33,516 bases of DNA from Falsiroseomonas oryziterrae (GTDB lineage: Bacteria; Pseudomonadota; Alphaproteobacteria; Acetobacterales; Acetobacteraceae). Under the pieces are notes generated by a model, which saw nothing but the letters and a program-made list of their open reading frames with translations, made no database searches and was not told the DNA's origin. Position 1 is the first letter of the stretch, and every line of letters begins with the position of its first letter. Of the stretch, positions 4,431 through 19,853 are shown piece after piece. The stretch covers positions 1-33,516 of the forward strand of contig NZ_JAKJIB010000011.1 of the NCBI RefSeq assembly GCF_021864505.1, in the 5' to 3' direction. The position numbers and the translations under genes are program-made.

Positions 4431-4466
4431 TACTACCACCAATCCGACAAACCGAAGGAAAGACCC

Positions 4467-6796: not shown

Positions 6797-6979
6797 ATCC
6801 AAGATTCCCTGGTCTGTTCCGCTCTTCGCGGGCCGTCCTCACCATGTCTTGGGGCGACGGGGCGCGTCGTTGCGCGCCGGCCAACTTCTTCCAAAGAAAT
6901 CGAGCCGACCGCTTTCGCCCTTGCTGCGCATGGCGATCGGATCGCGATCCGCGGAGAGGGCTTGGGGAAGGCGCGCGAT

Positions 6980-7158
6980 GGCGCGCGCCTTCCTCTTCGT
7001 GGTGGGAGGATCAGCCGCGGTGTCGCGCGCTGGACGTGCTGTTCGAACTGCTGGCCTCTGGCGGGCAACTGCTGACCAAGGAGGCGCTACTTGCCAACGT
7101 ATGGCCCGGCGTCATCGTCGAGGAGAACAACCTCCAGGTTCAGATCTCGGCCTTGCGT
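6980..7158 (+). pseudogene. Remnant of a winged-helix (Trans_reg_C) transcriptional regulator
   Basis: Only part of the C-terminal-type winged helix remains. RALDVLFELLASGGQ followed by LLTKEALLANVWPGVIVEEN and NLQVQISALR (7024-7158) is the recognition region of OmpR/CadC-like regulators, in particular those that start with a 'SRALDxL' wing and continue into ATPase or TPR domains. The preceding strand text RLPLRGGR is in another frame (from 6980), so there is at least one frameshift near 7020. After ISALR the family text stops and unrelated residues follow. No start codon and no effector domain remain. It abuts, tail to tail, the remnant of a membrane gene on the other strand. Confidence 0.65.
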
Positions 7159-7438
7159 CCGCCGCACCCAGGGCAACCTGCGCCACGTAGAGGCTCGCGA
7201 TGAGGCAAGCCGATGCCGCGAAGCCGCGCAGCCGCCGCACCAGCAGCGCCCCACCGAGCAGCCCGGCCACCGGCAGGGCCAGCGTCACGCCGAGCGCGGC
7301 ATGGACGCCCCAGAGCTCACCATCGCGAAACAATGCCTAGCCCGCGGTGAGGAACTGCGCCAGCAGCCCGAGGGGCAGCGCACGGGCCGCCAGCACGAAG
7401 GGAGCAGGCGGGAGCAGGACGCCGGAAATGGACCGCAC
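7112..7438 (-). pseudogene. DUF6220-like membrane protein gene interrupted by an in-frame TAG
   Basis: From a GTG at 7438, with GGAGG at 7447-7451 at ideal spacing, the frame reads RSISGVLLPPAPFVLAARAL then LLAQFLTAG, a TAG stop (7337-7339), then ALFRDGELWGVHAALG and two more hydrophobic segments (VTLALPVAGLLGGALLV and FAASACLIASLYVAQVALGA). The pattern 'AQFxxAG-x-F-xxxHxALG' followed by four membrane helices resembles DUF6220 proteins, which have no known function. The stop falls where that family has a residue between G and the next hydrophobic residue, so one substitution explains it. The last part, after VALGAA at about 7160, does not look like family sequence and probably lies beyond a rearrangement junction. 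The family name is a moderate guess. Confidence 0.5.
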
Positions 7439-7441
7439 CGC

Positions 7442-7609
7442 TCAGGCCTCCGCCGCAAGCGGCAGCAGGCGCGCGCGGGCCGCGACGGACTGCGCCGTCG
7501 CCGCCATCCAGCGCCGCAGCCGCGCGGCATAGGCCTCGCCCGCCGCGTCGAGCTCCGCGGGGGAAAGCCGGTTCGCCCGGAAGAGCAAATGGGGCCGGGT
7601 CCAGGCCAT
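7442..7609 (-). pseudogene. Unidentified minus-strand gene fragment (3' end)
   Basis: About 55 residues are coding-like on the minus strand: PHLLFRANRLSPAELDAAGE, then a long amphipathic alpha helix (AYAARLRRWMAATAQSVA) ending LLPLAAEA and a TGA at 7442-7444. The stop lies 3 bases before the GTG of the DUF6220-like gene, whose ribosome site lies inside this fragment, so the two were once an operon. The upstream (5') part is missing because at about 7607 the sequence changes to the AraC remnant on the other strand. I do not recognise the family. It may be the C-terminal helix of a small regulator. Confidence 0.35.
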
Positions 7610-8374
7610 ACCGCCTATCTGATCGCATCGGTGGACCTGCCGGTGATGGGATCGGTGATCGAGGCGAGCGCGGAGCGCCCCTATCTCTGCCTGCGTCTCG
7701 ACCTCGACATGACGGCGCTCGGGGAACTCGCGATCCGCTATCCCGCAACCGGCCCCGAGCCGGAGGGCCTTCCTGTCGGAATTGCGCTGAACCGGACAAC
7801 GCCCGCGCTGCTCGACGCCGCGACCCGGCTCGTGGGCCTGCTGGACACGCCGGACGACATCGAGGCGGTTGCGCCACTGACAATCCGCGAGATCCTCTAC
7901 CGCCTCCTGACCGGGGACAGCGCCGCCACGGTCCGGCAAATGGCGCGCGCCGACAGCCGCCTCAATCAGGTCGCCCGTGCCATCGTCTGGATCAGAACGC
8001 ATTTCCGGGAGGCCTGTCCGATCGAGACATTGGCCGAGATGGCGGGCATGAGCCGCTCCGCCTTCCACGCACATTTCAAGGCGATCACGTCGATGAGTCC
8101 GCTTGAGTTCCGCACGCATCTGCGCATGCATGAGGCGCAGCGGCTCATGGTCGGCGATGCCATGGACGCCGCCAGCGCGGGCTTCAGCGTCGGATACGGC
8201 AGCCCATCGCAATTCAGTCGCGACTACACCCGCATCTTTGGGATGCCCCCGGCCAAACACGCTGGCCGACTGCGCGGCATCGTTGAAACCCAGTCCGAAA
8301 CGCAGGAGTTGGCGTCTGTCCAGAAACATCTTCGATGTGAGCCGGCGGGGCTGGATGGTCGGGCTGATTCGTAA
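7607..8374 (+). pseudogene. AraC-family regulator lacking its N-terminal ~80 residues
   Basis: The frame carries most of an AraC regulator with an AraC_N (YqhC-like) cupin domain: AYLIASVDLPVMGSVIEAS, RPYLCLRLDLDMTALGEL, then LTIREILYRLLTGD, and the double HTH domain with THFREACPIETLAEMAGMSR SAFHAHFKAITSMSPLEF and FSVGYGSPSQFSRDYTRIFG. Full-length relatives have about 80 more residues before this point, covering the first strands of the cupin. Here the homology begins abruptly at 7607, and upstream codons in the same frame are low-quality arginine/glutamine-rich text. I therefore call it 5'-truncated. In relatives this regulator often stands next to an SDR gene, and an SDR tail does follow. 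It could still be expressed from an internal start, giving a bare DNA-binding domain. Confidence 0.75.
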
Positions 8375-8429
8375 TTCGACCGGGTCGCGCAACTCTGGAC
8401 GGACGAACCGATGTTGGACCCCAGCGAGC

Positions 8430-8600
8430 GGTGGCACATCGGCGGAGGTGGCGGAGGTGATCCTGGTCGCCGTCAGCAATGGCACCGCCCGTTTGCGCTG
8501 TGTCGCGACCGAGGGCATCCGCGCCTGGGTCGCGGCGCACCGCGAAACCTCCGAGGAAGCGTACATCGCCGTCATGCGACGCGAGGTGGGGCTTGGCTGA
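8430..8600 (+). pseudogene. C-terminal remnant of a short-chain dehydrogenase (SDR)
   Basis: The last 55 residues before the stop at 8600 read TSAEVAEVILVAVSNGTARL, then VATEGIRAWVAAHRETSEE and AYIAVMRREVGL. This is the typical tail of SDR oxidoreductases of the type regulated by YqhC-like AraC proteins ('AEVI..A.TDG...LRYVAT.DI..L...R...SEE.Y...MR'). The Rossmann fold, the catalytic YxxxK and the N-terminus are missing. The text upstream of about 8430 in this frame is not SDR-like. The AraC stop at 8374 lies only about 55 bases before, so an internal deletion removed most of the SDR gene. Confidence 0.65.
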
Positions 8601-9156
8601 GACGCAAGCGCCGGTGGTGACGCGACTGCCGTGGCAGGAGGTCTTGCGGTACCTCGATCCGGCACGGCGGCTCGATCCTTTCGATCCGCGGGTCGCCGGC
8701 ACGCCGGCGCTCGGGCTCGACCTGCCCGGCAGCGACCTCGACATTCTCTGTCATGCGCCGGATCCCGATGCGTTCCTCGCCGTGCTCTGGCCGCTGTGCT
8801 CAGGCTGGCCGGGGTTCGCGGTGTGGCAATGGCGCGGCGCGTACCGCCCGCTGGTGGCACGCTTCCAGGCCGGCGGCTGGGAGGTCGAGATCTTCGCAGC
8901 CGGTGAACCGGTCGAACAGCAGATGGCATGGCGGCATGCCCGCATCGAGGCCAGGCTGCTGCGGATTGGCGGCACGGCGTTTCGAGACCGCGTGATGGAT
9001 CGGCGGCGGCAGGGCCTGAAGACAGAACCTGCCTTCGCGGCGGTACTGGGGCTTGAGGGGGACCCGTATCGCGCGCTGCTCGCATGCGAGGGTTGCGACG
9101 ACGACGCACTGCGACGGCTGGTCGAAAGCCGGGCGCTGGCGCCAAACCAACGATGA
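8593..9156 (+). CDS. DUF4269-family protein (nucleotidyltransferase-like)
   Basis: The 187-residue protein matches the DUF4269 family in length and wording: FDPRVAGTPALGLDLPGSDLDI, with GSDLDI resembling the metal-binding GS..D.D of nucleotidyltransferases, then WEVEIFAAGEPVEQQMAWRH, then RIEARLLRIGG and QGLKTEPAFAAVLGLEGDPY. The family's biochemical function is unknown; the nucleotidyltransferase link is inferred from GSxxDxD and the later acidic VEIFAAG strand. No in-frame ATG exists at a sensible place. TTG at 8593 gives AETQAPVVTRLPW, with GAGGTGGGG just upstream, and overlaps the SDR stop by 8 bases. Its ribosome site thus lies inside the SDR tail, which may be why that piece survives. 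Confidence 0.8.
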   Translation: MAETQAPVVTRLPWQEVLRYLDPARRLDPFDPRVAGTPALGLDLPGSDLDILCHAPDPDAFLAVLWPLCSGWPGFAVWQWRGAYRPLVARFQAGGWEVEIFAAGEPVEQQMAWRHARIEARLLRIGGTAFRDRVMDRRRQGLKTEPAFAAVLGLEGDPYRALLACEGCDDDALRRLVESRALAPNQR

Positions 9157-9616
9157 CGCGCCCGATGCGAGTCACGCCGGCGGTTGGACGGCATGGTAGG
9201 CGGAGTGCTCGGAAAACACCGTGGCTCGCAACCGAGCGATGGAGATCTGCGTTTCATCCTGCGCGGCGCGCCATGCACCCAGCGTCTGCGCAGCCCCATG
9301 GCTGCGGCGCTTGAGCGCCCACCGCTCACAGAGGGTGGAGTTCTCGGTTCCCACCGCTGCTCCAGTCGGCCTTTCCCAGAACGCTCTCCATTGCCGTTCG
9401 GACCGCGCGGAAGCGCCTGTCTGGCCGAGGTTCGCGTACCAACCTTGATGGTGCAGGGACGGAACGACGGGCCAAGAACCCTTTCCGAACGCCAAAGACT
9501 CTCCGGACCTTGAGAGTTGGACGAGCTTACCCTCAAGTTTATGCGCTGTTCGACTTGGGTGTGGGACTATACAGCCATGAACGGCGCCGGGTTTGCCGGA
9601 GGCTGTTTGGTGTGGG
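9157..9616. other. About 460 bases with no recognised gene
   Basis: Open frames exist on both strands, but none has a recognisable domain or a convincing start. On the minus strand the text RLRATVFSEHSAYHAV near 9190-9240 and FWERPTGAAVGTEN near 9330-9390 looks protein-like, without a family I can name. On the plus strand VRVPTLMVQGRNDG near 9430-9475 resembles an alpha/beta-hydrolase strand but stands alone. The stretch lies between the DUF4269 gene and two IS fragments, so decayed sequence is the simplest reading. Confidence 0.4.
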
Positions 9617-9725
9617 TTACGCTGCCAGGGGAGTGGCCTCCTGTGCGGCATAGTAGCGCGCTTCCGCCTCGGCGGGCGGGATGTTCCCGATTGGCTCGAG
9701 GAGGGCGGCGGTTGTTGAACCAGTC
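9617..9725 (-). pseudogene. 3' end of a second IS3-family transposase (orfB), truncated and frameshifted
   Basis: On the minus strand the sequence encodes DWFNNRR, then after one extra C the text LLEPIGNIPPAEAEARYYAA and QEATPLAA followed by TAA (9617-9619). 'WFNNRRLLEPIGNIPPAEAE' is the standard C-terminus of many IS3-family orfB transposases and is clearly different from the C-terminus of the neighbouring complete element. Only about 35 codons remain. The upstream end coincides exactly with the inverted repeat of the complete IS at 9726, so that insertion or a later deletion cut this gene. Confidence 0.8.
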
Positions 9726-9739
9726 TGACCCTGCCCCTT
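9726..9739 (+). repeat. Left terminal inverted repeat of the IS
   Basis: TGACCCTGCCCCTT, matching the other end except for one C fewer in the C run. Confidence 0.8.
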
Positions 9740-9751
9740 AATTGCCCTCTT

Positions 9752-10867
9752 TCATGAGCAGAGCCTGTTCTCCGTTTGCCCCGATGCGGGGCGGGTTGCA
9801 AAGGCTGCTGGGGTGAGCCCGTTCAGGCTCGTGTGCGGGCGGGCCGTGTTGTAGTCGCTCCTCCGTGCTTCGATGATGCGGCGCGCCGCAGGCAGGCTGC
9901 CGAACAGGTGCTCGTTCAGGCACTCGTCGCGGAACCGGCCGTTGAAGCTCTCGACAAACCCGTTCTGCTGCGGCTTGCCCGGCGCGATGTAGTGCCAGGC
10001 GACGCCACGCTCCTGCTGCCAGCGCAGCATCGCGTGCGAGGTCAGCTCGGTACCGTTGTCGCTCACGATCAGCGCCGGACGGCCGCGCAGCGCCAGGATC
10101 CGGTCGAGCTCACGCCCGACCCGCAGCCCAGACAGCGAGGTGTCCGCGGCCAGCACCAGACACTCGCGAGTGAAGTCGTCCACCACGGCGAGGACGCGGA
10201 ACCGCCGCCCGCAGGCCAGCGCGTCAGAGACGAAGTCCAGCGACCAGCGTTGGTTCACCCCCTGCGACAGCGCCATCGGCGCCCGCGTGCCCAGCGCGCG
10301 CTTGCGCCCGCCCCGTCGGCGCACCCCAAGACGTTCCGCCCGGTACAGGCGAAACAGCTTCTTGTGGTTCAGCCGGTGCCCCTCCCGCGCCAGCAAGATG
10401 TGCAGGCGCCGGTAGCCAAACCGTCGGCGCTCATTCGCCAGCGCCCGCAGCCGAACGCGGACCGCGCCGACGTCAGGGCGCCGAGAGACGTAGCGGTACG
10501 TCTTCGGGGCCATGCCGACGATCTGGCAGGCGCGCCGCTGCGAGTAGTCCTTCTCATCGATCGCCCGGGTCACGGCGTTTCTCCGCGAGCTGGGCGTCAG
10601 AAATTTTTTTGCCAGCATCTCCCGCAGTGTCGAGACATCGAGCATGGACTCCGCCAGCAGCTTCTTCAGCCGCGCGTTCTCATCCTCGAGGCTCTTCAGC
10701 TTGCGGGCGTCCGACACCTCCATGCCCCCGTACTTCGACCGCCAGGCGTAGAACGTCGCCTCGCTGATCCCGTGCTTGCGGCACAGATCCGGCGCCGGCG
10801 CACCCGCCTGGTGCTCCTTCAGCACGCCAATGATCTGCTCCTGCGTGAACCTCGATCGCTTCATCAT
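9752..10867 (-). CDS. IS3-family transposase, orfA and orfB in a single frame
   Basis: The 371-residue transposase has an N-terminal HTH ([37 protein letters not shown]) and a leucine-zipper-like region ([18 protein letters not shown]), which together equal OrfA. The OrfB part has a HTH_21-like segment and an rve DDE core: first Asp in RWSLDFVSD, second Asp in [10 protein letters not shown], and Glu in [14 protein letters not shown], with the final [14 protein letters not shown]. All three catalytic residues are present, so the enzyme looks active. In most relatives OrfA and OrfB are separate frames joined by -1 frameshifting. Here they are continuous through [19 protein letters not shown], the join lying on a run of seven A (10604-10610). 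The MMKRSRF start lies 57 bases inside the right end. Confidence 0.92.
10601..10610 (-). other. A7-T3 slippery tract at the orfA/orfB junction of the IS
   Basis: On the coding strand the sequence is GCAAAAAAATTTCTGA. With seven A the frame continues into orfB. With six it would end orfA in -KNF and a TGA, the arrangement typical of related elements. The tract is the expected site of programmed -1 slippage. Confidence 0.55.
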
Positions 10868-10909
10868 CCGTCTCCCTTCGACGGACTCTAGCTCGGGGCG
10901 GGGACATCC

Positions 10910-10924
10910 AAGGGGGCAGGGTCA
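10910..10924 (-). repeat. Right terminal inverted repeat of the IS
   Basis: Read on the minus strand this is TGACCCTGCCCCCTT. It is the partner of the left repeat and lies 43 bases outside the transposase start. Confidence 0.8.
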
Positions 10925-10950
10925 AACTGTGTTGGCCGCGGCCGCTAGTC

Positions 10951-13206
10951 TCAATCGTCCTCGGCGGACGCCTCTTCGGGCGCTCGCGTAGAGCGTAAGG
11001 GAACACCCGGGGCGAAGGAGAGCATCTCGAAGGTCAATGCGCCCTCCTCGAAGCGCGCGCTAACCGAGACGCAGCCTCGCGCCGCGTCGAGCTCAGCCCT
11101 GACCGAGAGCGGTAGGCCAGAGCCACCGGTCAGAACTTCCGAATGCAGAGTCAGCCTTGCGTCATTTGCGCCCGGCGTCGCAAGGCAGCGGCACTCCACC
11201 ATCACGAAAGGGTCGCGAAGCAGCGGCGCGAAGGAGGCCGCCAGCCCCCCTCTAAGGTCCGGTGAACAGAGCGGCGAGCGGTCGTGCCAGATCAAGCCGG
11301 GGCGGGCCGCATAGGGAACGCTCGGCATCGCGAGCGCGAGCAGCCGCAGCAGCGGCGCGGCTGCAGGTGTGATCGAGATCATGCGCCAAGCATCGGCGTC
11401 GGCCCGCGACACCATCTCGCCGCCGCCCCGGCCGGCCGCATGGTGATGTCGCCCCCAGTCGTCGAGAAAGACCTCGATGGTTTCCGCGTTCCGTTCGTCG
11501 GGCGCGAATGAGGCGGGAACCTTCCCTCTGGCTTCGACGGACCAAAGCGCCTGGCCTGGCACCATGCCCGTCAGCAACGTGCGTACCGCGGGATCCGCAA
11601 GTGCGGCTGCAAGGACGGTGCCCTCGGGCGGGACGCCTGCCGCGTGCCATCGCAACAAGCCTTCGCCTGGGGCCGCCTCGGTCAGGAAGTTCGCCACACG
11701 GAAACGCGCCGTCATCGCACCCGGCGTCGCGGCCCTCTGCGCCTGGATGTGCAAGTGGGGCGTGGGCGACCGGCCGGAGTTCCCCACCAGACCAATCTGG
11801 CTGCCCGCGACCACGCGCATGCCGGGCGCGCACGGGATGCTCCATTGCTTAAGGTGCGCCAGCATCGCCCAGCCGCCCTGGTCAAGCCGGATGATAACGT
11901 GGTTGCCCCAGTTCTCCTGGAAGTTTGACACGCCCAGTGGGTTGTCAGCGACGTCGTTCCGCACGTGTTCGACCACGCCTGCCGCGGGTGCGTAGACCGC
12001 TGCCTCCCAGAGCGATGGCCGTGCGTCCGACGAGCCGTCGGTGGCGGGCCGCTGCAGGTCAAGCGCGTGGCGCCAGCGCCCAGCATGGCTCAGCTTTCCG
12101 GAGAACCCCTGCGTCACCTCGGCGGTGCCGGCTAGAGGCACGCCAAGCAGAGGCTCCCGGCTGCCCCAGCGGAGGGCTTCAAGGGCGGCGCCGCGCCAAG
12201 CCTCTTCCGGCGGCGACGAGGGAAGTGGGTTGCGCAATAGAACGCCGCGCTGTTCGGCCGACAGCAGCGCACCGATGCCGATCCAAACGGTCAGCCCGAG
12301 CGGGATCGGCAGGTAAGCGGCGGGCGATCCGCCGAATAGGTGCTGCAGCCCGATTGCTGCGACGGCAGCGAAGGCGCCCGCGGCTGCGGCAACCGGCAGG
12401 GAGCCGCGGGAGGGCAGGTACTGGACCGTCCCGAGCGCCATGCCGGCAAGGAAGAAGTTGTAGGAGGTCGGCAACCAGTAGTGCATGTCGCCGAGCTTCA
12501 GGAAGCTCTGCGCCGCCAAGACGCCGGCGATCCAGCCCACCAAGCCGCAGACGAACATGAGACGCGACCACGCGAGGATGACCCCTGCCATCAGCAGTCC
12601 GGCCCAGGGCGTGGGTGAGAACACCAGCGCGCCCAGCGAGCGCAGCAGCGCCATGACCCAGTCCGCCGCGGTAACGGGCGCGCTGCCCCAATCCATCGTC
12701 AGGATGGCGCGGTACGTCCAATCCGGAAAGACGAGGAAGTAGAAGCTGGCGACCACGCAATACGCCCAGACGAGCGGGGGCAGCGACGTGTTCTCCAGCG
12801 CGTGCCGGATTGCTGCCGCGAGAACTGCGGCGAGCCCTGCCGCCGCGGCAACGAGCCCCGCCTGCGCGATCAAGGAGAGGCCCGCAGGGCCCGTCATCCA
12901 GCCCGTTGCCACGGCGGCGAGAAAGGCGTTCGCCTTGAGGCAGCCCTCATGTCCGGTGATGTCGTCGTTTCCGCTCAGGCGCCGGACGGCCTCGCCGACC
13001 AGGATGCCAAGGACCCCGGACAGCAGCAGCCGCGGCTGAGCGGCTAGCGCCAGCCACATCAGCGCGCCGGCCCAGGCTCCGCGCACAAGCACGATGCCGG
13101 CTACGGGATGAAGGAAGAGTTCGGCCGCCAGCGTGGCCCGGCGCGCGAGCGGCGCGGGCAGGGCCGAGGCGTCGGGAAGCCGGCGGCTTAGCCGCACCGG
13201 CATCAT
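10951..13206 (-). CDS. Urea-transporter-fold membrane protein fused to an M23 (LytM) peptidase-like domain
   Basis: The protein has 751 residues. Residues 25-320 form about ten membrane segments with the two-repeat pattern of UT/SLC14 urea channels: GHEGCLKANAFLAAVATG in repeat one and TSYNFFLAGMALG in repeat two (the 'GxxxxNxxLxxxAxG' filter motifs), with LENTSLPPLVWAY between them. Residues 355-490 form an M23 beta domain: VTQGFSGKLSH, RWRHALDL (383 Asp), VYAPAAGVVEHV, GNHVIIRL, MLAHL (His451), QIGLVGNSGRSPTPHLHI (His484, His486). The first zinc His of HxxxD is shifted: Arg379 stands at the canonical place with His380 beside it. The remaining 260 residues are unassigned and beta-rich. The M23 part follows the last helix, most likely on the periplasmic side. 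It is the last gene of the PqqD operon, overlapping the previous gene by ATGA. Confidence 0.85.
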   Translation of the reverse strand: MMPVRLSRRLPDASALPAPLARRATLAAELFLHPVAGIVLVRGAWAGALMWLALAAQPRLLLSGVLGILVGEAVRRLSGNDDITGHEGCLKANAFLAAVATGWMTGPAGLSLIAQAGLVAAAAGLAAVLAAAIRHALENTSLPPLVWAYCVVASFYFLVFPDWTYRAILTMDWGSAPVTAADWVMALLRSLGALVFSPTPWAGLLMAGVILAWSRLMFVCGLVGWIAGVLAAQSFLKLGDMHYWLPTSYNFFLAGMALGTVQYLPSRGSLPVAAAAGAFAAVAAIGLQHLFGGSPAAYLPIPLGLTVWIGIGALLSAEQRGVLLRNPLPSSPPEEAWRGAALEALRWGSREPLLGVPLAGTAEVTQGFSGKLSHAGRWRHALDLQRPATDGSSDARPSLWEAAVYAPAAGVVEHVRNDVADNPLGVSNFQENWGNHVIIRLDQGGWAMLAHLKQWSIPCAPGMRVVAGSQIGLVGNSGRSPTPHLHIQAQRAATPGAMTARFRVANFLTEAAPGEGLLRWHAAGVPPEGTVLAAALADPAVRTLLTGMVPGQALWSVEARGKVPASFAPDERNAETIEVFLDDWGRHHHAAGRGGGEMVSRADADAWRMISITPAAAPLLRLLALAMPSVPYAARPGLIWHDRSPLCSPDLRGGLAASFAPLLRDPFVMVECRCLATPGANDARLTLHSEVLTGGSGLPLSVRAELDAARGCVSVSARFEEGALTFEMLSFAPGVPLRSTRAPEEASAEDD

Positions 13207-14636
13207 ACGGTGCCGAGGTGCCCTGGCAGGCGCTCAAGCCCGGCGATGTCCTCGAGCGTCTCGGCCTGCCGAATGAGCTCGGCCTTGCCCTGCTCCGTGA
13301 TCATTGCCATCGCCGGGCGGCCGAAGATGAACTGCATGGACTGGTTCGAGTTGTAGGCTCCCACCGGATACAGCGTCAGCAGGTCGCCTGTCTCTAGCAG
13401 GGGCAGTTCGGCCTGCTCGCGGACGACATCGATTGCCATGCAGAGCGGCCCATACAGGCGCACAGGCGTCGGCGCCGTGTTGGTGGCGCGGGCCGGCATA
13501 GCCTCGATCCGGAACCACGCCGCCGTATAGAGGAGGTTGATCCCGGCATCGAGCACGTAGCCCGTGCGGGCCTCGTTGCCGCGGAGCGCCTGCTCCTTGT
13601 AGGCGAGGCCGGCAAGGTCGCCGCCGGCGCTGAGCGTTGGCCTGCTGCCCTTCACCGCGGCGATGCGCGTGACGAGATAGCCGGCCTCGTCCACCAAGTG
13701 GCGTCCATTCTCCATCCGCAACAGCGGGCGGCGCTTCGCGGGCAGGGCTTTCAGCACGGCGGTGATGGCGTCCGCATATGCATCCACCGGCGGCACGGCG
13801 CGCTCCGCTGGGCCGGCCATGCCATGCAGCAGGCTCACCGACGGCAGGCCCCCGCCCAGGTTTAGGCAAGGGACGAGATGGCCGTGTCGCTGCTCGATAG
13901 CGTCACGCAGCGCCAGCATCTTCCGCGCTGCGACCGCATAGGCCTCAGGCAGCAGGATGTAGGTGCCGATATGGGTGTGCAGTGTGTGCAACCGCAGCTT
14001 CCGGTTCCGCACGACGCGCGCGGCAGCGCGCTCCGCCTCGCCGTCGGCGAGCGCGAAGCCGAACTTCGACCACATTGGCCGGATGCCGGTGTCTACCAGC
14101 AGGCGGAGCCCCACCTCCACCGGCGCGGGCGCGGCGGCCGCGATGTCCTCGACCAGGCCGAGCTCATCCCAGTTGTCGATCTGCACGAGCGCGCCCTCGG
14201 CCATGGCGCGCTCGAGGTCGGCGCGCGGCTTCGCCGGCCCGTTCAGCACGATCTCCCTCGCGGCATAGCCGAGCCGGCGGGCCTTCGCGTACTCGAATCC
14301 CGACGCGGCATCGGCGATCCAGCCCTCTGAGCGGAATACCTGGCAGACAGCGTCGAGGTGGTTAGTCTTGAACGACCAGGCAAACTCCGACTTCGCGTAG
14401 CGACTGCGGAAGGCCTCGCGCATCGCCTTCGCCTTCTCACGCAGCGTCCGCTCGGAAAAGACGAAGAGCGGCGTGCCGAAGCTACGCGCCAGATCGGCGA
14501 CCAGGACGCCGTCTATCGCCTCGCGGAAGCTGGCCTCCTTGCCGCGAGAGAACGCGTTGCGTTCGATAGCGGATTCGATCGGCTGGCGCCCGAGTTCGTC
14601 CGTGATGGTGGGGGGGAAGTAGGTCAGGGGCATCAC
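13203..14636 (-). CDS. Fold-type III PLP-dependent decarboxylase, diaminopimelate-decarboxylase-like
   Basis: The 477-residue protein has the alanine-racemase-like barrel plus beta domain of DAP/ornithine-type decarboxylases. PLP-binding Lys90 lies in EFAWSFKTNHLDAV; HTHIGTY (near 222) and CLNLGGGLP (near 261) grip the cofactor; VLDAGINLL (361-369) and GPLCMAIDVV with Cys399 match the second half, and VGAYNSNQSMQF carries the cofactor-contacting Tyr428. Two features differ from housekeeping LysA: ENGRHLV in place of the usual EPGRxxV, and C-M-A-I-D in place of C-E-S/T-x-D. It is about 60 residues longer than LysA. This argues for a different amino-acid or peptide-bound substrate. The start is GTG 14636 (GTGA overlap) or ATG 14633. 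It is coupled to the ATP-grasp ligase upstream and the transporter/peptidase downstream. Confidence 0.88.
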   Translation of the reverse strand: MMPLTYFPPTITDELGRQPIESAIERNAFSRGKEASFREAIDGVLVADLARSFGTPLFVFSERTLREKAKAMREAFRSRYAKSEFAWSFKTNHLDAVCQVFRSEGWIADAASGFEYAKARRLGYAAREIVLNGPAKPRADLERAMAEGALVQIDNWDELGLVEDIAAAAPAPVEVGLRLLVDTGIRPMWSKFGFALADGEAERAAARVVRNRKLRLHTLHTHIGTYILLPEAYAVAARKMLALRDAIEQRHGHLVPCLNLGGGLPSVSLLHGMAGPAERAVPPVDAYADAITAVLKALPAKRRPLLRMENGRHLVDEAGYLVTRIAAVKGSRPTLSAGGDLAGLAYKEQALRGNEARTGYVLDAGINLLYTAAWFRIEAMPARATNTAPTPVRLYGPLCMAIDVVREQAELPLLETGDLLTLYPVGAYNSNQSMQFIFGRPAMAMITEQGKAELIRQAETLEDIAGLERLPGHLGTV

Positions 14637-15724
14637 GCGGCCTCACTGGTCCCAGCCGCCTCGGCGAACTGCTCGCCGGTGAGGCGCGCGATGTCGGCTA
14701 TGTCGCCGACTAGGTCTGTGCAGTGGCGGATGAACATCTTGCCCGGCGGGCACTGCTTCAGTTCGACACCGCTGCCGCCGCACAGGCGCTCGAAGAAGGC
14801 CGCCGGGAGGTTGCAGTCGATCTTGGCAGGGAAATCGATCCAGGCGGGGAAGCGGGGATTCATCTCCATCAGCACCGGCGGCCGGCCGGGCGCCTTGATG
14901 AATTCGAGCTCGAAGGGCCCGTCCCAGCGAAGAGCCCCGATGATCCGACGCGCGAACTCCTCGATCTCCGGGTTGTCCACCACCAGCCCCGCATATCCTT
15001 TGCCGAGCTTCGTCCGCAGCATCTTGCGGATGGCGCAGAAGGCGACCAGCCCACCCTTGCCGTCGCCGAGGCCGGTCAGATCGTATTCCTCCCCGAAGAC
15101 GGCCTCCTGCGCGAGAACGGGGCCGCCCCAGACACGATGGATGTCGGCGAAGGCCGCGTAGAGCTCGGCCGCCGAGTGCACTGCACGTGCGTCGTACAGC
15201 CGGCCCTTCACGTAGCAGGGATAGCCGATCTCGAGTGCGCGCGCGGCGAGCGTCGCTGCGTCATGCGCCTGCACGGTGCGAGGCGTCGGCACCTCGATGC
15301 GCTGGCAGAACTGCCGAAGATGCGTCTTCGCCATCGCCCGGAGTGAGGTGCGGCTCGGCAACAGCAGCCGCACGCCGAGGTTGGCGAGGTCTTCCTCGAT
15401 ATCGAGATAGTTCACAAGTTCGGAGTCGAGACAGGGGATGATCGCGTTGACCCCCTCCTCCGCGATGACCTGCTTCAGCCGACCCAGCAGCGGCTCTGGC
15501 CCGAGGGCGGGATAGGGCATGAGATGCGCTGCATCGAGGCGGTCGAGCCCGCCGCTGTAGATGCCGCTCTCCATGGGGTCGTAGCAGAGCCCGACGACCT
15601 TCAGCTGCGGCCAGACGCGGCGCAGGCTCTCCGCCACCGCGCCGCCCGGCTGCGGGCTCTCCCCGCGGTGCATGCCGGACACCGCCAGGACGCGCTGGCC
15701 CTCCGGCAGGCGTCTCGCGCTCAT
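14633..15724 (-). CDS. ATP-grasp ligase (CarB/PylC-like)
   Basis: The 363-residue protein has an N-terminal pre-ATP-grasp Rossmann domain (VLAVSGMHRGESPQPGGAVA, VVGLCYDPMESGIYSGGLDR, AIIPCLDSELVNYL). The ATP-grasp core follows: AMAKTHLRQFCQ, Lys173 in YPCYVKGRLYDA, Glu207 in VLAQEAVFGEEYDL, FELEFIK (Glu272/274) and LMEMNPRFPAWI (Glu287, Asn289), so all nucleotide and magnesium ligands look present. Such enzymes join a carboxylate to an amine through an acyl-phosphate. The partners here are probably amino acids or a peptide carboxylate, which I infer from the neighbouring decarboxylase. The protein is cytosolic. It overlaps the PqqD-like gene by ATGA at 15721-15724 and the decarboxylase by GTGA. 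It is not carbamoyl-phosphate synthetase, being far too short. Confidence 0.88.
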   Translation of the reverse strand: MSARRLPEGQRVLAVSGMHRGESPQPGGAVAESLRRVWPQLKVVGLCYDPMESGIYSGGLDRLDAAHLMPYPALGPEPLLGRLKQVIAEEGVNAIIPCLDSELVNYLDIEEDLANLGVRLLLPSRTSLRAMAKTHLRQFCQRIEVPTPRTVQAHDAATLAARALEIGYPCYVKGRLYDARAVHSAAELYAAFADIHRVWGGPVLAQEAVFGEEYDLTGLGDGKGGLVAFCAIRKMLRTKLGKGYAGLVVDNPEIEEFARRIIGALRWDGPFELEFIKAPGRPPVLMEMNPRFPAWIDFPAKIDCNLPAAFFERLCGGSGVELKQCPPGKMFIRHCTDLVGDIADIARLTGEQFAEAAGTSEAA

Positions 15725-16128
15725 GTTGCCTCCTGCGCGATCAGGCCGCGCAGGGTCAGCTCGTTGAGGAACAGCTCGGCGTCGCGGATCGCGCGCGTCC
15801 TCTCGATTCCGTAGCGCCGCGCCAGCATTTCTGGCAGGTCGTCGCGTTTGGCGCCGCCCTCAATGGCGCGCAGCACGAAGGCAGCCGTCGGGCTGATCCG
15901 GTAGAACATCCCCCAGACCGTATCGAAGACGAAGGTGTCGCCGTAGAACTTCAGGTGCCGGGTGCCGCGGAGCGGGCCGATGGACGCGCTCGCGGTCGGG
16001 GAGCGCCTTGCGTTTGGTTGGGTCAACGCCCTGACAATCCTCCAAGCTTCGGCCGGCGTGGTCGGACCCGCCGATTGTTCGCGCTCCGCGGTCCTAAGGG
16101 CCGCTTTCCTTAAACCATAGCGCACCAT
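15721..16128 (-). CDS. PqqD-like protein (RiPP recognition element fold)
   Basis: The protein has about 135 residues, with the PqqD domain in the last 85: GTRHLKFYGDTFVFDTVWGM (three beta strands), FYRISPTAAFVLRAIEGGAK and a three-helix end with LARRYGIERTRAIRDAELFL and ELTLRGLI. The 'FxISPTxxxVxxxIEGG' and 'FLNELTxxGLI' wording is standard for PqqD, which binds the leader of a precursor peptide and presents it to modifying enzymes. I start at the ATG at 16128. It has no close ribosome site, and the first 45 residues are basic and unlike PqqD. A TTG at 16026 with GGAGG at 16039-16043 would give a normal-length protein of about 100 residues. It is first in the four-gene operon and divergent from the solute-binding protein. 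Confidence 0.8.
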   Translation of the reverse strand: MVRYGLRKAALRTAEREQSAGPTTPAEAWRIVRALTQPNARRSPTASASIGPLRGTRHLKFYGDTFVFDTVWGMFYRISPTAAFVLRAIEGGAKRDDLPEMLARRYGIERTRAIRDAELFLNELTLRGLIAQEAT

Positions 16129-16165
16129 GCGCGCAGGAACATTGCTCCAGATCAATGATCCGTCC

Positions 16166-16185
16166 CCACGGTCGTTCTACCGTGG
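16166..16185. promoter_or_regulatory. Perfect palindrome CCACGGT-N6-ACCGTGG, candidate operator
   Basis: Two 7-base arms are separated by CGTTCT, midway in the 86-base gap between the divergent PqqD-like (start 16128) and solute-binding (start 16215) genes. The 20-base dyad has the size of a dimeric-regulator operator. The bound protein is unknown and no regulator gene is adjacent. Confidence 0.5.
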
Positions 16186-16214
16186 AGCGCAACGATATCG
16201 AGCGGAACGCACAT

Positions 16215-17810
16215 ATGACGCGCGTCGGGTCTCCACGCTTCCTCGTCGCCTCCGGGCTTGTCCTGGCCCTTTCACTCGCTGGCTGTGCCGGAACGGACCG
16301 GCAGGACAACATGCCGCCGCCAGGGACCTTGAGGGCGGTACCCCACGCAGGGCTGACGAGCCTCGATCCGATCACCACGACCGCATACATCAATCGGACG
16401 CATGGCTATCTCGTCTACGACACGCTCTTCGCGCTGGACCAGAATTTCGAGCCGCAGCCACAGATGGTGGACAGCTTCACCATCTCGCCCGACGGTCGGA
16501 CCTACACCTTCCGGCTTCGAGACGGGCTACGCTGGCACGATGGCACGCAGGTCACTGCGGAGGATTGCGTTGCGTCCCTCCGCCGATGGGGCCGTCGCGA
16601 CGGAACCGGCCAGGCACTCTTCTCGACCGTGGAGAGCCTGACCGCCGAGAACCCGCAGACCATCGTCATGCGCCTCCGTCGCCCGTTCCCCGGGGTTCTG
16701 GAGGCGCTCGGGAAGATCTCCTCCAACGTGCCGTTCATGATGCCCCGGCGCCTGGCGGAGACCGATGCCAACACCGCGGTCAACGATGCCACAGGATCGG
16801 GCCCCTACCGCTTCAGCCGCGACGACTGGCAGCCGGGTCGCCGGGCCGTGTATCTGCGCAATGACGCCTATGTGGCGCGGTCGGAGCCCGCTTCCCTCGC
16901 GGCCGGTTCCCGGGCCGGACAAATGCCGCGCATCGAGTGGGTCAGCTACCAGACACCCGAGGACGCGGTGGCGGCGCTCGGCCGCGGCGAGGTGCACTAC
17001 CTCGAATCGCCGCCTGTCCGGCTGTTGCCGCAGCTGCGTGAGATGCCGGGTGTCAGCGTCGGCTTCACCGACCCGCTCGGGAATGTCGGCATGGCGGTCT
17101 TCAACCACGCGGCAGCGCCGTTCAACAACGTCGCCGTACGTCGGGCCGTCATGATGGCCATGAACCAGGAAGACTACATGACGGCCGCGGTGGGCGATCG
17201 GACGCTCTGGCGCACGTGCCACTCCGTCTTCCCCTGCGACTCGCCGCTGGCCAACGAGGCCGGGAACCAAGTGATGCGCAGCGCCAACCTGGACGGCGCT
17301 CGTGCTGCCCTGCGCAGGGCAGGATATCGCGGGCAACCGGTCGTCATCATGAACCCGACCGACATTGCGGTGCTCGCGGCCTTCACCCGGGTCACGGCGG
17401 ATCGCCTGCGGGAGATCGGCATGAATGTCCAGGTTGAGGACATGACCTGGGATGCGCTGCTCCAGCGCCGGAACACGCGCAGCGGCCCTGGCTCCTGGAG
17501 CATGTTCCACACCTGGTGGGTGGCGGCAGACCTTCTCGATCCCACCAAGATCGCCTTCTCGGGCAATCCTCAGACCGGCTGGATCGGCTGGCCCCGCGAC
17601 CCGCAGCTGGAACGGCTGCGCGCCTCCTTCGTGGCTCAGCAGGACCCCGCGCGACGCAGGGCCATCGCCGAGCAGGTGCAGCAGCGGGTTCTCTCCAATG
17701 CGAACTTCGCAATCCTGGGCCAGTTCTATGAGCCGATCGCATTCCGGGACAACGTGACCGGCCTGCAGTCGCCCATCCAGATGTACTATCGCCTCGGGTT
17801 GCGGCAGTGA
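16215..17810 (+). CDS. Lipoprotein solute-binding protein, peptide/nickel class (SBP_5)
   Basis: The 531-residue protein has a lipoprotein signal (FLVASGLVLALSLAGC, lipid Cys24), so it sits on the membrane facing the periplasm. The mature chain is a family-5 substrate-binding protein: HAGLTSLDPITTTAYINR, YDTLFALDQNFEPQPQMV, TYTFRLRDGLRWHDGTQVTA, TGSGPYRF, AVRRAVMMAMNQEDYM. These proteins bind oligopeptides, dipeptides, glutathione or nickel. The start is ATG 16215; an in-frame extension to 16155 would overlap the palindrome. No permease or ATPase is near, so the transporter partners are elsewhere or absent. Its divergent position with a common palindrome links it to the PqqD/ATP-grasp operon. 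Substrate unknown, but a peptide fits the context. Confidence 0.9.
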   Translation: MTRVGSPRFLVASGLVLALSLAGCAGTDRQDNMPPPGTLRAVPHAGLTSLDPITTTAYINRTHGYLVYDTLFALDQNFEPQPQMVDSFTISPDGRTYTFRLRDGLRWHDGTQVTAEDCVASLRRWGRRDGTGQALFSTVESLTAENPQTIVMRLRRPFPGVLEALGKISSNVPFMMPRRLAETDANTAVNDATGSGPYRFSRDDWQPGRRAVYLRNDAYVARSEPASLAAGSRAGQMPRIEWVSYQTPEDAVAALGRGEVHYLESPPVRLLPQLREMPGVSVGFTDPLGNVGMAVFNHAAAPFNNVAVRRAVMMAMNQEDYMTAAVGDRTLWRTCHSVFPCDSPLANEAGNQVMRSANLDGARAALRRAGYRGQPVVIMNPTDIAVLAAFTRVTADRLREIGMNVQVEDMTWDALLQRRNTRSGPGSWSMFHTWWVAADLLDPTKIAFSGNPQTGWIGWPRDPQLERLRASFVAQQDPARRRAIAEQVQQRVLSNANFAILGQFYEPIAFRDNVTGLQSPIQMYYRLGLRQ

Positions 17811-18020: not shown

Positions 18021-18950
18021 ATGCGTTTTCGGGCACGCTTGCGTCGAGCGGCCTCCTGCGCCGGTGCGTGCTGGCGCTTCGGGGTGAGCGCGCTGCTGCT
18101 GCTCGGCACCACCCTGCTGCCCGCCAGGTGGGCCGAAGCCAGGGATGCCACGGTGCGCATCGCTGCCACCGCGCCGCACTCCGGCCGCGATGTCCAGCTC
18201 TTCGGCGAGGTGTACCGCCCCGCCGGGGAGGGGCGCTTTCCAGCCGTTGTGCTGAAGCATGGCTGCGGCGGCTGGATGGGCGGCGCGCGCCACGCCCTGC
18301 AGCAGCATGCGGCCTTCCTGCGCGACAATGGCTTCGTGGTGCTGAACCTCGACGGCTTCGGTCCGCGCGGCCTGGGCGACGGTTCGGCCTGCGCCAGCGT
18401 CGCCACGCTAACCGAGGCGCTGCGCTACCGTACGCAGGACGCCTTCGACGCGCTGCGCTACCTGCGCTCGCTCGACTACGTGGATTCCGAACAGATCTTC
18501 CTGATGGGACAGAGCAACGGCGGCAGCGTGGCGATGCTCGCGGCCGCGGCCGGCGCCGCCCGCACGTTCCGCGCGGCCGAGGGCGGCTTCCGGGCCGTGG
18601 TGGCCTTCTATCCATGGTGCGGGACCCTCGGCTCGACCCGGCTTTCCCTCGAAGCGCCGCTCCTGGTCCTCACCGGTGCGCGCGACGACTGGACGCCCCC
18701 GGATGACTGTCGCCGCTTCACCTCGAGCGGGGCACCGGTCCGGGTGACCGTCTACGGCAATGCGGCGCACTCCTTCGACCTGCTCTCACCCCCGCACCGC
18801 TTCCTCGGCAAGCTGGTGGGCTACGACGCGGACGCAACGCAGGACAGCCGCCAGCAGATGCTCGCCTTCTTCCGGGAGCATGGCGCGCGCGCCCGCGTGG
18901 CTCGGGCTGGAGCCAGCAATCCCATCACCCGGGTCAGCGACCGCCGCTGA
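18021..18950 (+). CDS. Dienelactone hydrolase-family alpha/beta hydrolase, exported
   Basis: The 309-residue protein has a hydrophobic N-terminus (RFGVSALLLLGTTLLPARWA, AEA) that reads as a signal peptide ending near residue 40. The mature part is a DLH-type hydrolase: FPAVVLKHGCGGWMG, GFVVLNLDGFGPRG, nucleophile Ser in FLMGQSNGGSVAML, Asp in LVLTGARDDWTPP and His in YGNAAHSFDL. DLH proteins usually use Cys at the nucleophile place, so with Ser it resembles the general esterase/hydrolase branch. It could cleave small esters in the periplasm. GGAGC precedes the ATG. It stands alone, after a terminator and before the TorF-type gene. Confidence 0.85.
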   Translation: MRFRARLRRAASCAGACWRFGVSALLLLGTTLLPARWAEARDATVRIAATAPHSGRDVQLFGEVYRPAGEGRFPAVVLKHGCGGWMGGARHALQQHAAFLRDNGFVVLNLDGFGPRGLGDGSACASVATLTEALRYRTQDAFDALRYLRSLDYVDSEQIFLMGQSNGGSVAMLAAAAGAARTFRAAEGGFRAVVAFYPWCGTLGSTRLSLEAPLLVLTGARDDWTPPDDCRRFTSSGAPVRVTVYGNAAHSFDLLSPPHRFLGKLVGYDADATQDSRQQMLAFFREHGARARVARAGASNPITRVSDRR

Positions 18951-19112
18951 GGCCGTCGCCGCATCACCCTGCGAGGCGAGGCTGCAACGCCAGTCGCGTG
19001 CAGGCGTGCGCCTGTTGATGCGTATCAATGCATAGTGTTCCGCCTCCGGCTTTCATATCTTCCGAACGAAATGCACCCGCCGCGCCGCGGTGCAGCTTGT
19101 CTGAGGGGGACC

Positions 19113-19853
19113 ATGCGTAGATCGCTTGTTGCCGGTGCGCTTCTTGCCGTCGTCGTCGCCACGCCTGCTGCGGCGCAGGTGCCGCTCGGCAGCGGGTTCA
19201 GCGTCAGCGGATACGTCACCGGGACGACCGACTACGTCACCCGCGGCATCAGCCAGACACGCGAGCGACCCGCTTTGCAGGCCGGCGCCGAGCTCGCGCA
19301 TGAGTCCGGCTTCTATATCGGTACCTTCGTGAGCAACGTCGCCTTCCAGGGCACCGACGCGCGGCAGGAGGTGGATGCGTATCTCGGCTATCGCTGGACA
19401 CTGAGTGGGTTCCGCTTCGATGTGGTGGGCCAGTGGTACACCTATCCGGGCTATACGGCCGGGCCTGGCCAGTACGGGCTCGATTTCGCGGAGGTCATCC
19501 TCTCGGCGGCCTATGATTTCGAGCGTGTGACGCTGAGCGGCCTTGTCGGCTGGTCGCCCGACTACTCCTTCGAATCTGGCAACGCCGTGCGGGTTGAGGC
19601 GGGTGTCGCCTGGACGACGCCTCTCTGGGACATCGTTCTGTCGGGCCGCGTCGGCTACCAGTCGATCGACCGGAACAGCAGGATCGGACTGCCGGACTAC
19701 GTCTACTACGGCGCATCCGTGTCGAAGGCGCTCGGCGGCGGCGTGAGCGTCGCCGCGGGGGTGTACGGAACGGACATCTCGAAAAGCGACTGCTTTGGCG
19801 GACGCGACGTCTGCGACACGCGGCTGCTAGCCTCCGTAACCTGGCGCTTCTGA
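19113..19853 (+). CDS. TorF-type putative outer-membrane porin (TIGR02001-like)
   Basis: The 246-residue protein has a signal peptide (RRSLVAGALLAVVVATPAAA, cleavage after AQ) and a beta-rich mature chain ending in VTWRF, the terminal aromatic of outer-membrane proteins. The motifs SVSGYVTGTTDYVTRGISQT near the start, SGFYIGTFVSNVAFQG, and EVDAYLGYRWTLSGFRFDVV are those of the proteobacterial TorF/TIGR02001 family, small barrels whose transported substrate is unknown. The start is ATG 19113, with GAGGGGGA before it; an upstream in-frame ATG at 19035 would add a non-signal extension. No partner genes are adjacent, so function is not inferred further. Confidence 0.85.
   Translation: MRRSLVAGALLAVVVATPAAAQVPLGSGFSVSGYVTGTTDYVTRGISQTRERPALQAGAELAHESGFYIGTFVSNVAFQGTDARQEVDAYLGYRWTLSGFRFDVVGQWYTYPGYTAGPGQYGLDFAEVILSAAYDFERVTLSGLVGWSPDYSFESGNAVRVEAGVAWTTPLWDIVLSGRVGYQSIDRNSRIGLPDYVYYGASVSKALGGGVSVAAGVYGTDISKSDCFGGRDVCDTRLLASVTWRF

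Follow-up and report, generated by a model that had tools for sequence, protein, structure and literature searches.

RiPP recognition elements (RREs) are known grips for precursor peptides, and in borosin-type RiPPs the enzyme and its substrate peptide lie in one chain. PylC couples an amino acid to the side-chain amine of lysine, and BtrJ is the ATP-grasp ligase of the butirosin pathway. According to parts of an RRE survey (PMC12710340), the characterised recognition sequence of lasso RREs is YxxP, with W/Y/L variants. In excerpts of a study of FigC (PMC7857480), the butirosin decarboxylase BtrK is described as acting on glutamate held by the carrier BtrI. Here we analysed a window of 33,516 nucleotides from Falsiroseomonas oryziterrae in which genes for a PqqD-family protein, an ATP-grasp ligase, a PLP decarboxylase and a urea transporter (UT)-M23 fusion lie together. 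This operon is an uncharacterised, widely spread and probably biosynthetic set. None of its proteins (window and relatives scanned) reached a curated NCBIfam cut-off, and no description was found in the open-access literature searched by component names.

The lasso RREs TfuB1 and TbiB1 belong to the same sequence family as the PqqD protein and likewise have a partner with a YxxP-type recognition motif, but here it is a PLP decarboxylase, and not a short precursor peptide, that bears the motif, in its arm. The decarboxylase shares with the FigC/FslC clade (SbnH, AcsE, MccE, BtrK) its fold, a catalytic Cys followed by Met and the loss of the DAP/ornithine specificity residues, but has an arm of ~38 residues, Ile and Gln in place of the citrate contacts, and an ATP-grasp partner. 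The likeness to butirosin BtrI/BtrJ/BtrK would lie in the decarboxylation of a side-chain-tethered amino acid, and the ligase-decarboxylase logic is possibly shared; in contrast to butirosin, no acyl carrier protein was seen here, and a PqqD protein and a leader-like arm are present instead. The membrane protein has the folds of urea transporters and of M23/LytM proteins, here joined into a single polypeptide that includes a further beta-rich domain, and, unlike in M23/LytM proteins, SIR2 can replace the M23 domain.

Gene set and its conservation

The sequence-only reading had drawn four minus-strand genes joined by 4-base overlaps, and all ORFs and overlaps (15721-15724, 14633-14636 and 13203-13206) are present in the sequence as claimed (Table 1). 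The decarboxylase arm, the UT-SIR2 variant and the downstream accessory genes were absent from that reading. The SBP_bac_5 and DLH-like proteins are recurrent neighbours in the window's own clade, with the same cluster at 5 and 7 loci, respectively.

Table 1. Features of the operon and its neighbours, in window positions
Feature	Coordinates	Strand	Remarks
PqqD-family protein, RRE (peptide-binding) type	15721..16155	-	TTG start; alternative in-frame ATG start gives 16128 (start in the sequence-only reading); conserved domain in last ~80 residues
ATP-grasp ligase	14633..15724	-	conserved NPRFPAW block after E-x-N motif
PLP decarboxylase, alanine-racemase fold	13203..14636	-	GTG start; Pfam and AF2 model
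Decarboxylase N-terminal arm, leader-like	14523..14636	-	about residues 1-38
UT-M23 protein	10951..13206	-	UT fold (about 18-320), M23 (about 355-510), beta-rich C-terminal domain (about 515-735)
Divergent family-5 substrate-binding protein, probably lipoprotein	16155..17810	+	Pfam SBP_bac_5
Dienelactone-hydrolase-like protein	18021..18950	+	Pfam DLH

Conservation was assessed in two sets of loci. The first comprised 87 loci, 80 of them from a decarboxylase-anchored scan (the best 80 of 516 relatives). In this set all four genes were found at 74/87 loci and PqqD at 80/87; the order PqqD, ATP-grasp, decarboxylase, UT-M23 was kept at 71/87 and another order was seen once, and UT-SIR2 replaced UT-M23 at 2 of the 74 complete loci. 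Eight of the 13 incomplete loci were cut by contig ends (L034, L076, L109, L115, L116, L124, L130 and L134), L091 had 1.2 kb left, L105 and L114 had 7 kb downstream without UT, L125 was unlinked and L066 decayed. The second set was anchored independently on the ATP-grasp protein and held 53 places, 13/14 from one search and 40/42 from another; left out were G475 (the genome of L136, in the first set), the window itself and G842 (a 197-aa fragment). The decarboxylase adjoined 49/49 strong matches and 0/4 weak ones, and PqqD was present at 48/49 strong matches, the exception (L210) beginning near a contig start. The two sets overlap partly, with identical arms in L122/L197 and L089/L212. The genes thus stay together in other genomes, and the lack of co-occurrence against which the sequence-only reading had staked itself did not appear. 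Since the set is conserved across distant genomes (19 phylum-level groups by record title), it is no chance reading.

The UT-M23 gene is not always beside the other three, since PqqD, ATP-grasp and a tagged decarboxylase were found with no UT-M23 in several kb downstream at five loci (L105, L114, L204, L206 and L207). On one viral-labelled contig (L232), PqqD, ATP-grasp and decarboxylase genes were found without YxxP in the arm and without a UT-M23 match. An initial single-protein scan of genome contigs with the ATP-grasp query gave no relative. A plasmid-borne operon was rejected, as a search of 72,556 plasmid records with the ATP-grasp protein gave no match at E 1e-30. An anti-phage defence system was likewise rejected, as no PADLOC family matched the four window proteins or two relatives at E 0.001.

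The ligase, the decarboxylase and the membrane protein

The sole Pfam match of the ligase was to ATPgrasp_Ter, at 26.3 bits against a cut-off of 29.1, and PF02222 gave no match in the window ligase at E 0.01. The closest solved chain was 2pn1, which is CPSase-like, and weak similarity to VanA and Ddl was seen. The motif residues were conserved over 87 domains, in line with the intact metal and nucleotide ligands read earlier from the sequence. ATPgrasp_Ter, which the window ligase also grazes, recurs in ATPgrasp_Ter/PylC-like pairs on viral-labelled contigs (L234, L235 and L237), where an ATP-grasp gene likewise adjoins an alanine-racemase-fold decarboxylase, but these pairs lack an arm and any PqqD, UT or M23 match.

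Pfam placed the decarboxylase in Orn_Arg_deC_N (91.4 bits, cut-off 23.4) and Orn_DAP_Arg_deC (42.6, cut-off 23), and its nearest solved relative was N-citrylornithine decarboxylase (7kh2, 2.4e-87). Against NF041039 (FslC/FigC, cut-off 500) the window protein scored 155.9 bits and a Sulfurimonas member 236.4. In an alignment mapped by hand, C399-M400 of the window corresponded to C354-M355 of FigC, and the FigC citrate contacts H357 and R387 to I402 and Q432; the roles of the specificity and citryl-binding residues are those given in excerpts of the FigC study (PMC7857480). A rhizoferrin-type siderophore-like or other small-conjugate pathway, with PqqD as a bystander, would agree with the kinship to N-citrylornithine decarboxylase and with a secreted protein family, which may be an outer-membrane barrel, near the operon in 67/140 loci (a TPR-profile neighbour count of 102 was set aside because the profile had drifted into another secreted family). 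We consider such a pathway very improbable: the residues that bind citrate are replaced, none of the 29 flanking/accessory proteins scanned was recognised as an NIS synthetase, and PqqD is present almost as regularly as the rest of the set, both in the first set (with its best 80 of 516 relatives) and at the strong ATP-grasp matches.

The sequence-only reading had also described a decarboxylase with altered specificity motifs, and this description held. Against TIGR01048 (LysA) the window protein scored 192.2 bits, below the cut-off of 297.9, and the LysA residues, an acidic one after the catalytic Cys and an Arg for the distal carboxylate, were not found, the window having C399-M400 and, in the specificity helix, T371/W374. 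A separate LysA above the cut-off was present in 11/13 genomes with the operon or part of it, the others being the window's own assembly (G000) and G064 (68% complete). The gap in the window's assembly probably reflects the assembly, since all 14 other genomes of its genus have LysA (428-445 bits). A plain LysA replacement was rejected on these three grounds.

In the membrane protein, UT (85.8 bits, cut-off 25) and Peptidase_M23 (48.2, cut-off 28.7) both exceeded their Pfam cut-offs in one chain, bearing out the fusion proposed earlier. The UT fold matched urea transporters (dvUT, UT-B) at Z 32-34.5 over 304-321 residues, with UT-B at Z 34.5, rmsd 2.9 and 319 aligned residues, and M23/LytM folds were matched at Z about 15 over 123-144 residues. 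Five residues of the M23 H..D..H-x-H pattern (H374, D383, H451, H484 and H486), which we take to be the Zn ligands, were invariant in 53 sequences. For the NCBIfam equivalog urea_trans_yut (cut-off 274.6), the window protein was unlisted at E 0.1 and relatives reached 118, 85.8 and 57.2 bits. Structure matches (UT, ammonia-channel and M23/LytM-type) lay nearly all within residues 4-537, and the C-terminal domain spans about 515-735. The mean net charge over 53 sequences was +1.28 in the first helix segment, +1.06 in the last and -0.91 in the centre loop, with a neutral linker after the last helix (-0.08), a modest bias. An NAD-dependent SIR2 domain can stand in for M23; no more members of this UT-SIR2 branch were found beyond the query genomes (1/9 and 1/1 genomes). 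A cytoplasmic orientation of the M23 domain is suggested by the modest charge bias taken together with the SIR2 variant, and a periplasmic M23 domain with a trimming role is judged less likely.

These results bear on a role in cell wall or lysine supply, in which the decarboxylase would be a LysA substitute, the ligase D-Ala-D-Ala-like and the M23 domain a periplasmic peptidoglycan hydrolase. The TIGR01048 kinship, the weak likeness of the ligase to VanA and Ddl, the match of M23 to LytM domains and the window assembly without LysA above the cut-off all speak for this role, but it is made highly unlikely by the separate LysA of most operon genomes and of all 14 other genus genomes, by the replaced LysA substrate residues, and by the SIR2 swap and charge bias, which suggest a cytoplasmic M23.

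The PqqD protein and the decarboxylase arm

The PqqD protein exceeded its Pfam cut-off (40.1 bits against 23.4). A profile of 45 relatives had its best solved matches in the lasso RREs TfuB1 (7e-14) and TbiB1 (8e-14), followed by other PqqD-family chains, so the PqqD-like protein of the sequence-only reading is of RRE type and closest to lasso RREs. Of the neighbours scanned, none was recognised as a lasso cyclase. A six-frame search of the 87 loci (including the best 80 of 516 relatives) for short ORFs with [YW]xxPx[ILV] returned 388 ORFs; those on the operon strand within 5 kb look like noise except in L115, where the operon contains a tagged 63-aa ORF that may be a degraded copy of the arm. 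A separate precursor peptide at the operon was thus not found in 86/87 loci.

A motif of the same type lies on the decarboxylase. The window arm has Y-F-P-P-T-I at residues 6-11 and E-R-N-A-F-S-R-G at 25-32. A YxxPx[I/L]-type motif was present in 134/135 arms read, including arms from the best 80 of 516 relatives. In the first set, with those same relatives, [YWF]xxPx[ILVFM] was found in 84/84 arms located by script and in 2 read by eye, that is, in all 86 intact arms, and in the 84 the G-S-P block invariably followed at a distance of 39-47 residues; in the second set, 48/48 arms carried the motif. These counts omit L066 (no arm) and L191 (where the script took another decarboxylase piece), and the distant decarboxylases L233-L237 are outside the 135 arms. 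With shuffled arms, 5.5% of trials gave the motif at any position and 1.2% gave it within the range 38-48. P9 was invariant in 57 sequences, and no other arm residue was universal. The arm is predicted to be disordered: in the AF2 monomer model (mean pLDDT 86.9), pLDDT was 41-46 over residues 1-30 and above 90 over most of the domain. The motif was absent from 8 LysA proteins (from operon-bearing genomes or the window's genus, in regions located by a loose pattern), and neither arm nor motif was present in the distant decarboxylases of L234, L235 and L237, loci where the neighbour is an ATP-grasp gene and PqqD gave no match. In G1017 (L125/L230), the decarboxylase lies away from PqqD and ATP-grasp and still keeps its arm.

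A second arm segment follows the motif. In the 84 first-set arms (including the best 80 of 516 relatives), it reads NKFG in 53, and an x-K-[FYHAS] block is found in 67. Three double-ATP-grasp loci keep the Lys (SKHL, GKHQ and GKHE), and the two of these with a downstream gene both carry UT-SIR2. This leader-then-core layout raises the possibility that the arm is a covalent carrier or substrate, and that the ligase loads an amino acid onto its second segment, in most lineages onto the Lys of N-K-F-G. PqqD would present the arm to the ligase, and the decarboxylase would act on the tethered amino acid, as BtrK does on carrier-bound glutamate according to excerpts of PMC7857480. The product would then be unloaded where the UT-fold channel opens to the cytoplasm, either by M23 or by SIR2, which is a lysine deacylase. 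On this reading the arm would be a carrier made by the ribosome as part of the very enzyme that tailors its load, which would recall the enzyme-fused peptide segment of borosins, but there is no methyltransferase and no repeated core here. However, the Lys is missing in the window, in nearly all its clade (16/17 rows) and in L092, which excludes a universal arm Lys, and among these 17 loci with Lys-less arms UT-M23 is present in all except the contig-end locus L076. Moreover, the motif Pro is the sole universal arm residue and no modified arm has been seen. We therefore regard the carrier as a bolder and less probable alternative.

The arm could instead be an internal structural or regulatory part, such as a dimer contact or an active-site lid, with PqqD serving a peptide or protein encoded elsewhere. 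The conserved NKFG block and L232, which keeps PqqD without YxxP, are consistent with this, as is the location of the FigC active site at the dimer interface, given in part of PMC7857480 (the model here is a monomer). This is doubtful, however, because the most constant arm residues form a lasso-type RRE tag beside a lasso-RRE-like PqqD, the arm is predicted to be disordered, LysA and PqqD-less relatives have no arm, and L115 alone of the 87 loci (including the best 80 of 516) has a short tagged ORF inside the operon.

A model for the operon

Collectively, these results suggest, with a probability of roughly 0.55, that an RRE here grips a leader-like tag on an enzyme. PqqD would bind the YxxPx[I/L]-type motif on the disordered N-terminal arm of the decarboxylase, a proposed docking step that is well supported computationally, and this contact would hold the decarboxylase on the ATP-grasp ligase. 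We infer that the ligase would link a carboxylate to an amino acid via its side chain, and that the decarboxylase would then strip the alpha-carboxylate of the conjugate, the kind of reaction that the N-citrylornithine, BtrK and MccE decarboxylases carry out on their own conjugates. The UT-fold protein would lie in the membrane with M23 (SIR2 in the variant) on its cytoplasmic face, where it may cleave or free the product and allow its passage. Two observations run against docking: L232 is without YxxP, and docking alone leaves the second arm segment (NKFG) unexplained.

In this family, an enzyme carries the recognition motif as part of its own chain, the operon order is kept across many phyla, and no recognised precursor lies beside the operon in 86/87 loci (including the best 80 of 516). 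Parts of the RRE survey (PMC12710340) describe RREs as labelled by nearby classical RiPP enzymes, including ATP-grasp PF02222; as the window ligase has no PF02222 match, a survey of that kind would leave this PqqD unlabelled. The arm motif gives PqqD a visible partner within the operon. If the docking is true, the role of RREs extends to the assembly of ordinary metabolic enzymes. A carrier arm, for its part, would be a new way to tether intermediates and a new kind of carrier-bound biosynthesis.

Gene order and co-occurrence

The four window genes were confirmed as minus-strand ORFs joined by three 4-base overlaps, as the sequence-only reading had described. Pfam models above cut-off were PqqD, a two-domain PLP decarboxylase, and UT plus Peptidase_M23; the ATP-grasp protein matched ATPgrasp_Ter alone, just under cut-off. 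An NCBIfam scan of the four proteins gave no match at curated cut-off (0/4). The operon is followed by a transposase, presumably IS3-like.

Strong ATP-grasp matches (E below 1e-30) were found in 5 of 385 genomes of a class-level sample (the window's own, G035, G007, G064 and G125). When the last protein was searched against 146 genomes, its UT part was matched in only four (the window's assembly, G463, G436 and G035), and the remaining places listed covered M23 alone. The decarboxylase was present at all places from the ATP-grasp and UT searches (5/385 and 4/146 genomes).

The sequence-only reading took the four genes for one system, and they do co-occur in both sets of loci fetched. A decarboxylase-alignment scan of 84,980 species, one genome each, supplied the best 80 of at least 516 relatives; these and seven others (the window, L032-L035, L065 and L066) made up a first set of 87 loci. 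The order PqqD, ATP-grasp, decarboxylase, UT-M23 was found in 71/87. Two loci had a UT-SIR2 gene last and one had UT-M23 upstream instead. The remaining 13 comprised eight truncated by contig ends, L091 with 1.2 kb left, L105 and L114 with no UT within 7 kb downstream, L125 with the decarboxylase alone, and the decayed L066. With the ATP-grasp protein as anchor, 14 of 200 genomes from one phylum and 41 of 299 from the window's phylum had a match. Among the 53 places fetched, the decarboxylase adjoined 49/49 strong matches, PqqD was present at 48 (the exception, L210, begins near a contig end) and a UT gene lay within the stretch at 44, while none of the four weak matches had any partner gene. 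Two of the five strong places lacking UT were truncated by contig ends; L204, L206 and L207 had none in the available room. In the window's own family the operon is rare, with strong matches in 2/150 genomes plus a remnant in G436 (L066).

Coordinates of features in the window and in comparison loci
Location	Feature	Coordinates	Strand
Window	Transposase (HTH_Tnp_1, integrase-core domains), ending 83 bases downstream of UT-M23 stop	9752-10867	minus
Window	TorF-family putative porin (145.6 bits, cut-off 47.15)	19035-19853	plus
L066	Decayed operon; UT and M23 out of frame with each other, armless decarboxylase, no match to PqqD or ATP-grasp	6436-11105	
L033	UT-SIR2, recognisable sirtuin motifs	13877-15595	plus
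L035	UT-SIR2, recognisable sirtuin motifs	7330-8979	plus
L115	63-aa ORF, TTG start, between and overlapping ATP-grasp and decarboxylase	246-437	plus
L232	PqqD, ATP-grasp, decarboxylase with YxxP-less arm; no UT-M23 match	3405-5919	plus
L136	~310-residue family, directly after UT-M23	10338-11255	
L098	~310-residue family, directly after UT-M23	10318-11274	
L103	~310-residue family, directly after UT-M23	7312-8280	
L234	Ligase/decarboxylase pair, no PqqD or arm	4944-7231	
L235	Ligase/decarboxylase pair, no PqqD or arm	3220-6077	
L237	Ligase/decarboxylase pair, no PqqD or arm	4938-7183	

Decarboxylase substrate

The closest solved relative of the decarboxylase was the N-citrylornithine decarboxylase 7kh2 (FslC/FigC), followed by LysA and DokD, with BtrK lower. 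Met400 comes directly after the window's catalytic Cys399, matching C354-M355 of FigC. In an alignment mapped by hand, Thr371, Trp374 and Phe375 stand in the places of FigC Thr327, Thr330 and Tyr331, and Ile402 and Gln432 in those of its proposed citrate contacts His357 and Arg387 (FigC residue roles from PMC7857480). Trp374, Met400, Gln432 and Gln435 were invariant in 57 sequences. On this basis, the substrate is probably none of diaminopimelate, ornithine and citrylornithine, and instead an amino acid whose side chain is larger and carries less charge. Conjugated amino acids are the substrates of FigC, SbnH, AcsE, MccE and BtrK; for BtrK this is glutamate attached to a carrier protein (PMC7857480). 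By analogy, an ATP-grasp partner making an amino-acid conjugate, on which the decarboxylase would then act, fits an enzyme of this conjugate-acting clade. One way to make such a conjugate is acylation of the side-chain amine of lysine, as by PylC.

A separate true LysA was present in 11/13 genomes bearing the operon or part of it. None scored above cut-off in the window's assembly; a LysA was found in each of the other 14 members of the genus that were searched, so its absence is probably a gap in this draft of 735 contigs.

Membrane protein, neighbours and spread

The AF2 model of UT-M23 (mean pLDDT 89.3) matched UT-B over residues 7-346 (Z 34.5, rmsd 2.9, 319 aligned) and an M23 domain over residues 351-505 (Z 15.1, rmsd 2.5, 123 aligned). 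Pfam and these fold matches agree on the urea-transporter fold fused to an M23-like domain that had been proposed from sequence. The M23 zinc-ligand residues were invariant in 53 sequences. In L033 and L035, the loci with UT-SIR2, the ATP-grasp protein is a tandem double domain; both also have a TPR gene upstream. Mean net charge was +1.28 in the first helix segment and +1.06 in the last, compared to -0.91 in the centre loop and -0.08 in the linker after the last helix. This bias modestly favours a cytoplasmic location for both ends, in agreement with a SIR2 domain, which depends on NAD, in the position of M23. On that side of the membrane, either domain would have as its substrate something of cytoplasmic origin and not peptidoglycan.

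A secreted family of ~310 residues was found near the operon in 67/140 loci. In many of these it comes immediately after the operon, and a secreted TPR protein of ~210 residues often accompanies it. By its look the larger family may be an outer-membrane barrel. It has no Pfam or NCBIfam name: L136, L098 and L103 gave no Pfam match at E 0.1, and L136 and L098 also none in NCBIfam. The window lacks both families. What it has in common with its clade instead is a divergent substrate-binding protein, seen in 5 loci, and a dienelactone-hydrolase-like protein, seen in 7, and downstream of these genes in the window lies the putative porin, which could be an outer-membrane channel.

A tree of 85 decarboxylases, most of them from metagenome bins, spanned 19 phylum-level groups as judged from record titles. 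The phyla were clustered yet broken up (27 changes against a minimum of 18 and a shuffled mean of 57.6), and the window grouped with Marimonas and Alkalilacustris, near Pseudomonas/Stutzerimonas and beside Verrucomicrobia. Horizontal transfer of the operon appears likely.

A tagged arm on the decarboxylase and its putative reader

The decarboxylases start with ~38 extra residues, an arm whose commonest form is Y-E-K-P-x-I-x-K-x-x-T-G-x-M-N-K-F-G; that of the window reads Y-F-P-P-T-I-T-D-E-L-G ... E-R-N-A-F-S-R-G. The motif [YWF]xxPx[ILVFM] was present in 84/84 arms located by script in the first set, with the G-S-P block 39 to 47 residues further on; the motif's first residue was Y (77), W (6) or F (1) and its sixth I (68), V (7), L (6), F (2) or M (1). 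It was also found in two arms missed by the script (L084, L127) and in 48/48 arms read from the second set, where W is common. In total 134/135 arms, from two sets that partly overlap in species, carry it, the exception being L232 on a viral-labelled contig. Shuffled arms gave the pattern anywhere in 5.5% of trials and in the correct range in 1.2%, and it was absent from 8/8 LysA control proteins. In the AF2 model, pLDDT was 41-46 at residues 1-30 and >90 over most of the domain. A conserved motif on a predicted-disordered tail has the appearance expected of a docking motif. The small ORF of L115 repeats the tag (YHKPII ... SKYGKAG) and is either a tagged peptide in its own right or a degenerate duplicate of the arm.

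YxxP has been characterised as a sequence recognised by lasso-peptide RiPP recognition elements, with W/Y/LxxP variants (PMC12710340). The first matches of the PqqD profile were TfuB1 and TbiB1. The arm is also retained in genome G1017, where the decarboxylase gene is not linked to those for PqqD and ATP-grasp. L234, L235 and L237, on viral-labelled contigs, provide a natural control: a distant decarboxylase adjoins an ATP-grasp gene (PylC-like_N, ATPgrasp_Ter), there is no PqqD match, and arm and motif are both missing. Together, these observations make docking of PqqD onto the arm the simplest reading, in which PqqD would grip the arm and bring about docking within an enzyme complex.

A second arm block, x-K-[FYHAS], occurs in 67/84 arms, and its lysine is kept in 3/3 double-ATP-grasp loci. 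Sirtuins strip acyl groups from lysine, so the arm itself might be loaded with an amino acid and the product freed by SIR2 or M23. However, the lysine is lost in 16/17 rows of the window's own clade, and we consider a loaded arm unlikely. In L204, L206 and L207, where PqqD, ATP-grasp and a tagged decarboxylase have no UT-M23 nearby, the lysine is replaced by Thr (NTFG/NTFA), but maybe in one or two events, and it is retained in L105 and L114, which have no UT either. Our preferred, main reading is docking within an enzyme complex.

No description of the operon came from the open-access literature searched; subscription papers, among them earlier surveys of ATP-grasp operons, may mention it. 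The ligase-decarboxylase pair alone has distant parallels in L234, L235 and L237, and the novelty would lie in the arrangement of a tag on an enzyme.
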